Source of the DNA: Gemmatimonadaceae bacterium
GTDB taxonomy: Bacteria; Gemmatimonadota; Gemmatimonadetes; Gemmatimonadales; Gemmatimonadaceae
Direction of reading: 5' to 3'
Assembly (NCBI GenBank): GCA_036003045.1
Contig: DASYSS010000017.1
Location: 248,001 to 312,000, forward strand
Length of the DNA: 64,000 bases
The notes under the pieces are model-generated. The model made no database searches and was not told where the DNA came from. It saw only the letters and a list, made by a program, of their open reading frames with translations. Of this stretch, positions 16,172 through 18,729 are shown in pieces. Within the stretch, counting starts at the first letter, position 1, and every line of letters starts with the position of its first letter. The translations under genes were made by a program, and so were the position numbers.

Positions 16172-17839
16172 TCACGGGAGCTGTCCGGTCGGCGCACTGG
16201 GAGTCTGCGCCGACCGCCCCGCGAAATAAGCGGCGCCGGCGACGAGCAGCAACGCCACCGCCGCGACGAGTATGTACACCACCGTTCGTGACTGACCACG
16301 CGATCGCGGAGCGGCGTCGACAGACTCGCTCCGCGGCGCGGTCGGTTGCGCGATAGGAGTCGAGGCGGGCGTGGGAGTAAAAATCGGAAGGCGTTCCGAG
16401 ACCGGCGGCGACATTCCGTCGAGATGAAGCTGGTCGATGTCCACGATCGCTGGCGGCTGCCCAGACTCGTCTGCGGGCAGCGCCCCCTCTCCATTCTCGA
16501 CGTGAGCTTCCACAGGCTGCACGGCCTCGCGCGCTGCGGAGGCCGACGCCTCGACCGGAGTCGACGACGACTGCTGTTCCGTCTCGACAGAGGGTGGCGC
16601 CGTTCCATTGGACGAGGACACCGTCGACGGCGATTCGGCGGCCACATCGGCCGGCGCGACATTCGGCACTCCGCTCGACGAATCCGGTGTGACGTAGCTC
16701 GAAGCGTCTCGTGTCGTCTCGTTCGCCGTGCTCGAGGCGGGGGGAACAACAGGATTTCCCTTGGGCGCTGACTGACGGCGACGCGCGACGTAGGCTCGCG
16801 GTAGCGCCTTTCCATCCCCGTGTCGCGCGGTCGGCACACTTCCGCTGATGGGTCGAGGAGGAGGAGCAGACGGCGGACGCGGCGTGCGCGGTTCGGTTAC
16901 CGTCGGCGTGGATCGGTGTCCCCTCGGCGGAGTTCCCGCCGTCGGGAGTGCGAGCGGTGACGAAGGCGTTCTCTTTCCCAGCACGACGTCGACCGGCGTG
17001 CGCGGTACGGCGGGAATCGGAAGATCGAGATCGAGCGGCGTTTGCTCTTCGACGACCGGCGCCGTCGACCGCGGCGGCTCCAGTGTCACGACAGCCACGC
17101 GCGCTTCTCGCGCCGGTGTTCCCGACACGGCACCGCTGCACAAGCAGCCGAGACGCGGCGCCACGTCCATCAACACCTGTTCGCCGGCGAGAAGATGCTG
17201 CGCGATCTCGCTCACGAAATCGTCCGACTCGACGTCGACGAGCGCGCGCGAAACGAGATCGGTCCACAGACGTTCGGCCGACGGCACGCCGCCCGGTTGA
17301 GAGAAGTAGCGTCGTCGATCAGGCGGAATGATCGACTCGAAAACGCGCGGCTGGTCGTCGAGCACGATCTGACGCTCGGCGAGCATTCCGATCAGCGTCT
17401 CCGGAGACATACGAATGTCGATCGATTCGTCGGTGGCGCCGGGGCAGCCGCCGACGTACGTGATGCGCACGCGAGTCGGATGCGATACGGCGCGGAGATA
17501 TCGCGCGAGCGCCACCGGCGGCGAGACGAGCGGCAACATGACGGGTCGAAGATCGCCGCCGGTCGTGAGCAAACGGTGCGCGACGATCGGACAGCTGCAC
17601 TGAATCGCCGGTCCGTGGCCGAAGCTCGGCAAACGCCGGAGGACCGCGGCGGCGACGAGCTCGTCACCCCAACTCGCTGGAACGACGCTCGCGTAGCCCG
17701 CCTGCAGGCACGCATGCGCGAGTTGAACGGCGGTGTACGGCGCGGCAGCGAGCAGCGCATCCGTGCCGAGGACGACCACCGGCACAGTCTGCGAAACGGT
17801 CGGTTCGGTTTGCTCGGGAGCAGCCGCCGCCAAATTCAT
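16172..17839 (-). CDS. Membrane-anchored [FeFe]-hydrogenase-like (H-cluster-fold) protein
   Basis: 555 residues. Residues about 18-250 follow the pattern of the [FeFe]-hydrogenase large-subunit C-terminal domain in three places. CSCP (Cys81, Cys83) stands where hydrogenases have TSCCP. GGCPGATDE (Cys132) stands where they have MPCxxKxxE. GCLCSG (Cys232, Cys234) stands where they have ACxxGC. Residues 250-515 are a long Pro/Ser/Thr-rich low-complexity linker, and about 520-540 is a single TM helix near the C-terminus. No N-terminal ferredoxin domain is present. The Cys set is altered, so a sensory or Fe-S-binding role is likelier than H2 catalysis. It is divergent from the Crp/Fnr gene at 17992. 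Maturase genes (hydE/F/G) are absent here. Family assignment is by eye. Confidence 0.55.
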   Translation of the reverse strand: MNLAAAAPEQTEPTVSQTVPVVVLGTDALLAAAPYTAVQLAHACLQAGYASVVPASWGDELVAAAVLRRLPSFGHGPAIQCSCPIVAHRLLTTGGDLRPVMLPLVSPPVALARYLRAVSHPTRVRITYVGGCPGATDESIDIRMSPETLIGMLAERQIVLDDQPRVFESIIPPDRRRYFSQPGGVPSAERLWTDLVSRALVDVESDDFVSEIAQHLLAGEQVLMDVAPRLGCLCSGAVSGTPAREARVAVVTLEPPRSTAPVVEEQTPLDLDLPIPAVPRTPVDVVLGKRTPSSPLALPTAGTPPRGHRSTPTVTEPRTPRPPSAPPPRPISGSVPTARHGDGKALPRAYVARRRQSAPKGNPVVPPASSTANETTRDASSYVTPDSSSGVPNVAPADVAAESPSTVSSSNGTAPPSVETEQQSSSTPVEASASAAREAVQPVEAHVENGEGALPADESGQPPAIVDIDQLHLDGMSPPVSERLPIFTPTPASTPIAQPTAPRSESVDAAPRSRGQSRTVVYILVAAVALLLVAGAAYFAGRSAQTPSAPTGQLP

Positions 17840-17991
17840 GTGGTGCGTGATCTGTAGCTAGTTCAGCTGAGAGGGATGGAGCGAGGCGCGCGCACTCCTT
17901 CGTCCAAACTTCAGAACGAAGATCGAAAAGCGGAGCCTGTCAAGAGCGGCCCAGACATTGCACCTCGCACAAATCGTTGCAGGCTGAGAGG

Positions 17992-18729
17992 ATGGTAGAG
18001 TTGGCGGACATGGATTTCGGGCGTGCGCGCCTCGAAAAGGAAGATCGCGACGCCCTCGCTGAATACGCGGCGCAGGCGTCATGGCCGGCGGGTTTCGGCA
18101 TCTATCAGCGCGGTGCGCCAGCCGATGGACTCTTTGTCGTTGCGCGAGGCCGAGTCGTGCTACGTAGTCGAGTACGTGCGTCGCGCGGATTCGTTCCGTG
18201 GGTCGCGGGTCCCGGTGAAACATTCGGTTCCGAGGGGCTTTCATCGACACGCCGCTACGCAACCGACGCTCGCGCGGACGAGGAGGCCGAGACCCTGTTT
18301 TTGAGCACGGCTCGCTTTCGTGCCTTCGTTCGCGAGCAGCCGCAGCACTCCTTGGCGCTCATCAGCCAGCTGCTGGCCGAACGAGCATCGTTGCTCGATC
18401 GCCTTCGCGAGCTGACCACGCTCAGCGTGGAGCAGCGCGTTGTGGCTACGCTGGTTCGTATGGCACGAGACGAGACGTTCGACCGCGAGGAAGGGCGCAT
18501 CGTTCTCTGTCCGGCGCGGTATCGCCTCTTGTGCGAGCTCGTCGGCGCGACCCGAGAATCGGTCTCGTTGGTGCTCGGCCGGTTGATCCACAGCGGGCTC
18601 GTCGAAAGGCGCGGCCAAATGCTTCTCGTCTCGCCGGCCGAGCAGCTCGCGGAACGCCTCGATAACGGCATCGAAACGGAATTGCCGATTTCGACCGTAG
18701 CCGAAGAGCAAGAACAGGCACTTCAGTAG
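17992..18729 (+). CDS. Crp/Fnr-family transcriptional regulator
   Basis: About 245 residues. A cyclic-nucleotide-binding-like beta-roll (about 25-115; YQRGAPADGLFVVARGRV, GPGETFGSEGL) is followed by a long dimerisation helix (about 125-150) and a winged HTH (about 165-215). The recognition helix reads TRESVSLVLGRL. Arg-Glu match the two CRP residues that read TGTGA, while the third contact (Arg185 in E. coli CRP) is Leu. There is no N-terminal Cys cluster, so it is not an Fnr-type O2 sensor. The start is uncertain: ATG 17992, TTG 17977 or ATG 18010. It is divergent from the hydrogenase-like gene and shares a 150-bp intergenic region with it. Confidence 0.85.
   Translation: MVELADMDFGRARLEKEDRDALAEYAAQASWPAGFGIYQRGAPADGLFVVARGRVVLRSRVRASRGFVPWVAGPGETFGSEGLSSTRRYATDARADEEAETLFLSTARFRAFVREQPQHSLALISQLLAERASLLDRLRELTTLSVEQRVVATLVRMARDETFDREEGRIVLCPARYRLLCELVGATRESVSLVLGRLIHSGLVERRGQMLLVSPAEQLAERLDNGIETELPISTVAEEQEQALQ

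Follow-up and report, generated by a model that had tools for sequence, protein, structure and literature searches.

A hydrogenase-like, tail-anchored protein encoded beside a divergent CRP-family gene in Gemmatimonadaceae: a candidate H2-blind Fe-S sensor

The sensory [FeFe]-hydrogenases of groups C and D (HydS, represented by TmHydS and TamHydS) lack Cys299, the proton-transfer cysteine of group A (PMC8163306), and carry a real H-cluster as well as [4Fe-4S] clusters at the N-terminus and another at the C-terminus (PMC13104023). Nar1, which is hydrogenase-like and does without maturases, has kept the [4Fe-4S]H site, and its clusters are O2-labile (PMC12621388). The protein described here, called FHL below (hydrogenase-like, tail-anchored), is encoded in a 64,000-nucleotide stretch (the window) of a contig (DASYSS010000017.1) from a soil-dwelling member of the Gemmatimonadaceae. 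FHL resembles the group C/D HydS in the signal-transduction setting of its H-domain and in the absence of the group A Cys299, but lacks their H-cluster and both their N-terminal and C-terminal [4Fe-4S] clusters. Like eukaryotic Nar1/NARFL/CIAO3, it is hydrogenase-like and maturase-less with the [4Fe-4S]H site kept; however, FHL has one site and a transmembrane (TM) tail, whereas Nar1 acts in the CIA pathway and carries a second [4Fe-4S] site as well as a Trp targeting signal at its C-terminus. FHL adds a new variant to the hydrogenase-like proteins already known to lack the cofactor, and can be viewed as a bacterial counterpart of Nar1, in which the hydrogenase fold survives without its cofactor; a literature search of incomplete coverage found no published description of it.

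The FHL gene lies on the minus strand of the window (16172–17839; 555 amino acids), at the coordinates given by an earlier sequence-only reading. The frame is open and has conserved relatives, and its substitutions against two of them (50/31/141 and 67/39/146 at codon positions 1/2/3) are concentrated at third positions, which shows it to be a real gene; a plus-strand ORF (17042–17857) was dropped in favor of this frame on the same codon-position evidence. An H-cluster-type domain begins at about residue 15 and ends at about residue 256 (17072–17797, minus strand), leaving no ferredoxin domain. It is followed by a low-complexity linker of 260 residues (257–516; 16292–17071, minus strand), recognized from its composition (Pro 18%, Ser 13%, Ala 12%) and by comparison with relatives, and by a C-terminal TM helix (residues about 519–541, or 519–537 on a tighter delimitation; the longer span is 16217–16285, minus strand), identified from the sequence, with a 14-residue tail beyond it; linker, helix and missing ferredoxin domain had all been recognized in the earlier reading. 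Identity to the nearest relative is 75% in the domain and 37% in the linker plus tail. Amid the otherwise variable linker, the motif LPRAYVARRR (residues 346–355; 16775–16804, minus strand) is kept in many relatives and is a possible docking motif. The Arg-rich flank before the TM helix suggests that the N-terminal domain is cytoplasmic. The helix is found in most FHL relatives and is missing from several; in the FHL of L006, L059, L062, L072 and L077 it is followed by an extra long tail with a charged, coiled-coil-like end (RRARLDSIERAQRRLDSLQR in L006).

Sequence profiles recognize the domain at the borderline. The Pfam family PF02906 (Fe_hyd_lg_C) matched residues 21–136 only by hmmscan (E 5e-4; 20.2 bits, with the curated gathering cut-off at 22.1), and in a whole-genome scan, in which FHL was the sole PF02906 match of its genome, the score was 21.9 bits, or 22.6 with neighboring stretches in frame. 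An NCBIfam search with FHL gave no match, and neither phmmer with the protein nor hmmsearch with a 9-row profile gave a significant match among PDB sequences; the fold assignment therefore rests on a structural model. The AlphaFold2 model, built from a nine-row alignment of Gemmatimonadota relatives (pLDDT 83.7; pTM 0.81), was placed by Foldseek with [FeFe]-hydrogenases (CbA5H, E 7.9e-9), and its overlay on HydA1 by VIA-align matched across the whole domain (Z 14.6, 230 residues, 4.1 A). We consider this fold evidence decisive for assigning the modeled domain to the [FeFe]-hydrogenase H-domain fold. Despite the same fold (230 residues, Z 14), FHL differs from HydA1 and CpI in having only 10–16% identity to them, no accessory clusters, a different third motif and no maturases for the catalytic cofactor.

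The cysteines of FHL are Cys81, Cys83, Cys132, Cys232 and Cys234 plus one other, Cys44, with none after residue 234. Across 43 distinct FHL relatives, all from one Gemmatimonadota family, Cys83 (17591–17593, minus strand), Cys132 (17444–17446, minus strand) and the Cys232-x-Cys234 pair (17138–17146, minus strand) are invariant (43/43). The sequence-only reading had listed Cys81 in the H-cluster-type set as well: its position, two residues before Cys83, was right, but only 39/43 relatives keep it, and it was dropped as a cluster ligand. Aligned via a bridging homolog, the histidine-kinase-type HydS L052, the four invariant cysteines fall on the TSCCP, MPC and Cx3C motifs of solved hydrogenases, that is, on C300, C355 and the C499/C503 region of CpI, which we take to be the matching H-cluster ligands. 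Ligand positions are kept, whereas canonical motifs and spacing are not: the third motif is CxC, shorter than the canonical Cx3C, which bears out the altered cysteine set noted earlier, and GxCPGA stands in place of MPCxxK. On this alignment, the identification of Cys83, Cys132, Cys232 and Cys234 as putative equivalents of the four H-cluster [4Fe-4S] ligands is well supported, and FHL is predicted, with good confidence, to bind one [4Fe-4S] cluster.

A profile search of the phylum gave matches in 115 of 395 Gemmatimonadota genomes, those within its own family being FHL proteins, and a scan of genome contigs with the window protein alone gave Gemmatimonadota matches only. The nearest H-domain homologs (E about 1e-30) are Gemmatimonadota ferredoxin-HydS-FeS-GGDEF proteins (L046, L048, L049, L055 and others). 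Such proteins occur in three sister families (f2, f7 and f9), where those read are about 590 amino acids long and combine two ferredoxin motifs, the H-domain, an FeS motif and GGDEF; a more distant family (f11) has ferredoxin-HydS-FeS-histidine kinases. FHL and the GGDEF-type proteins have in common an ERRRxxSxxGG/DRRRxxSxPGG motif, the same four-cysteine site (or, in the latter, its joint loss) and genomes without HydG (12 tested for the GGDEF type). Unlike FHL, the GGDEF-type proteins have an N-terminal pair of ferredoxin clusters, an FeS motif at the C-terminus, a GGDEF output domain and CxxC as third motif, and they have no linker–TM tail.

The four H-site cysteines are all present in 17, all absent in 27 and reduced to one in 5 of 49 GGDEF-type homologs, with two or three never remaining; this count covers correctly read sequences, and L046 (which has all four) and L145 were not scored as losses. 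Being kept or lost together, the four behave as one cluster site. About half of the GGDEF-type proteins (L046–L051, L054–L057 and L106–L144 of f2, f7 and f9) lack every one of the four cysteines and keep the domain and GGDEF. In the tree, which separates at least two such losses, the FHL proteins group in a single clade with SH-aLRT 99, next to that of the GGDEF type (83), with histidine-kinase-type HydS as outgroup; the FHL stem is very long, at 2.0 changes per column. Descent of the FHL H-domain from an ancestor shared with sensory HydS-like proteins is well supported, and FHL represents a sensory hydrogenase of this kind that has been stripped down. The simplest reading of the order of events, though not proven, is that maturation was lost first, and the ferredoxin and output domains afterwards. 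The proteins trace the conversion of a hydrogen-sensing domain, from a HydS histidine kinase with a maturase in one family, through maturase-less GGDEF forms in three, some with the cluster site erased, to the single-cluster, membrane-tethered remnant in the family of FHL.

The genome encoding FHL (98.5% complete) has no HydG over the cut-off, and its candidates for HydF are GTPase paralogs, all under the cut-off. No HydG over the cut-off was found in 16 FHL genomes or the 12 GGDEF-type genomes; among the genomes tested, only one, with a histidine-kinase-type HydS, has such a HydG, and a second genome of this type has fragments. Since HydG is missing from every genome tested with the FHL or the GGDEF-type form, an H-cluster cannot be made there. 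The HydG and HydF results and the altered motifs bear out the earlier argument against H2 catalysis.

The divergent Crp/Fnr gene noted in the sequence-only reading is real: a CRP/FNR-family regulator, assigned by Pfam and orthologs, is encoded on the plus strand at 17992–18729 (ATG start; TTG at 17977 is an alternative). A comparison of 13 orthologs shows no conserved Cys, so this is not an FNR-type Fe-S regulator, and any sensing chemistry would sit in FHL. Among 148 genomes of the family, FHL occurs in 42, the CRP ortholog in 60 and both in 26 (Fisher p 0.0014, with genomes treated without correction for kinship), and the two genes are adjacent and divergent in 26/26 genomes having both. However, FHL occurs without the CRP ortholog in 16/42 genomes and CRP without FHL in 34/60, so the pair is not obligate; of the redox- or gas-sensing pair proposed earlier, the genetic linkage is confirmed as real and conserved.

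The two genes sit in a block that recurs across genera, in the order Smr, M28 peptidase, FHL, divergent CRP, ThiF-rhodanese or rhodanese, and alpha/beta hydrolase. Genomes with CRP only mostly keep this block, CRP standing directly after the peptidase, which indicates that FHL either entered or dropped out of a CRP locus able to exist without it. Where CRP has been lost (L008, L061, L071 and L074), ThiF-rhodanese or rhodanese is the direct divergent neighbor of FHL. ThiF-rhodanese also occurs in the same block of FHL-less genomes (L095–L097, L099 and L104); it is therefore a syntenic neighbor, and was dropped as a specific FHL partner.

Between the divergent genes, aligned loci conserve a box, GCAATGTCTGGGCCGCTC (17944–17961, minus strand), which is a candidate CRP-type operator. 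Right behind it stands a T[T/G]GAC hexamer in 12/13 aligned loci, here TTGACA (17938–17943, minus strand), the putative -35 element of the FHL promoter, followed at a spacing of 17 bp in 12/12 loci by a -10-like hexamer of the form T...TT, here TTCGTT (17915–17920, minus strand), whose final two places are TT in 12/12. In FHL-less genomes, the core of the box lies upstream of CRP without TTGACA (0–2 mismatches in 6/12; rare or absent in shuffled sequences), which indicates that the box belongs to CRP and that the FHL promoter abuts it. At the box position upstream of CRP in L094 is a perfect 18-bp palindrome with CRP-site geometry, ATGTCCGGGCCCGGACAT, which by its sequence is a promising candidate for the ancestral operator of CRP. 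By the -35/-10 spacing, the palindrome center of the box would lie near -41.5 of the FHL promoter; class II CRP activators bind near -41.5. Of the two half-sites, just one is conserved, so the case for CRP control of FHL through the box is no more than suggestive. When the box plus TTGACA was sought with up to three mismatches in six genomes, five had this promoter only and the sixth had one extra three-mismatch match; the box as a mark of a wider regulon was dropped, being essentially confined to this promoter.

We propose, with about an even chance of being right, that FHL is a tail-anchored, H2-blind [4Fe-4S] redox- or gas-sensing protein, probably under CRP control. Its H-domain would use Cys83, Cys132, Cys232 and Cys234 to hold a single Fe-S cluster, [4Fe-4S] being the most likely type, where an H-cluster has its [4Fe-4S] half; with no maturases, the di-iron half would never form. 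The ancestor's ferredoxin domain, its FeS domain at the C-terminus and its GGDEF output would have been lost, and a disordered linker with a single TM helix would have taken their place, keeping the cluster domain on the cytoplasmic side of the inner membrane. FHL would be transcribed from the conserved sigma-70-type promoter, and since its -35 abuts a box common to the CRP promoter, its expression would probably be set by the neighboring CRP. We infer redox or gas sensing in that a change in the oxidation state of the cluster, or its loss (by O2, NO or the membrane redox state), could alter partner engagement by the domain or by LPRAYVARRR. Several observations weigh against this reading: FHL has no output domain, so signaling needs a further partner; FHL and CRP often occur apart; the TM helix is missing in several relatives and only half of the box is conserved; the cysteines of CxC are more closely spaced than those of Cx3C in the solved hydrogenases used for the alignment; and the rhodanese, ThiF-rhodanese or thioredoxin near some relatives would fit sulfur or Fe-S handling equally well. 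More doubtful is the fuller scenario of a new class of membrane-tethered Fe-S sensor in one Gemmatimonadota family, which would have arisen by two-step stripping of an H2 sensor (H-cluster maturation, then ferredoxin and output), with the leftover cubane site coupled to a dedicated CRP by the shared promoter and the signal relayed through the linker motif. The small domain (about 256 residues, one cluster) would be a simple system for asking what sensing the cubane half of an H-cluster is capable of by itself.

The chief rival, which we consider unlikely, is that FHL is a Nar1/CIAO3-like membrane factor for Fe-S or sulfur trafficking that delivers a labile cluster to clients. Nar1 offers the precedent of a maturase-less, hydrogenase-like protein (PMC12621388), rhodanese-type proteins occupy the same syntenic block and directly adjoin FHL where CRP is lost, and one FHL paralog group adjoins a thioredoxin. 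However, FHL has no second four-cysteine [4Fe-4S] site such as that of Nar1, Cys44 being the only further cysteine; ThiF-rhodanese, as noted, does not depend on FHL; and cluster transfer by FHL is hypothetical. It is less likely again that the cysteine site is structural or holds another metal (e.g., Zn), with the domain serving as a protein-binding scaffold or local CRP anti-regulator. Some GGDEF-type homologs keep the domain with none of the four cysteines, which indicates that a cluster is not essential for the fold to work, and the very long branch to FHL would also suit such a change of role, but the four cysteines are kept in every FHL relative. Lower still we rank the reading in which FHL, tethered to the membrane, serves in electron transfer or as a redox relay through its single cluster: one [4Fe-4S]-type site and a membrane anchor would be consistent with it, but FHL has no quinone, flavin or second-cluster domain, the tether is long and flexible, and the neighboring genes encode regulators, peptidases and hydrolases rather than respiratory proteins. 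We give practically no credence to an active hydrogenase or H2 sensor carrying a full H-cluster, which the H-domain fold and four cubane ligands would allow, given that HydG is missing from its own and the related genomes tested and HydF is matched only by GTPase paralogs under the cut-off, and given CxC and SxPGG motifs unlike those of hydrogenases, and the absent ferredoxin clusters.

Elsewhere in the phylum, G001 encodes a HydG over the cut-off (G001:C176:12045-13442) that shares its contig with a HydS gene and lies about 2.7 kb downstream of it, and given this HydG, the ferredoxin-HydS-FeS-histidine kinases L052 and L053 (f11) may be true H2 sensors. FHL paralogs have other neighbors: in L059 (4759–9874) and L072 (4233–9378), the paralog lies in a same-strand run with Thioredoxin_9, an RskA-type anti-sigma factor and an ECF sigma factor, and in L009 and L062 it is adjoined, in the same orientation, by a gene for an AidB-like acyl-CoA dehydrogenase.
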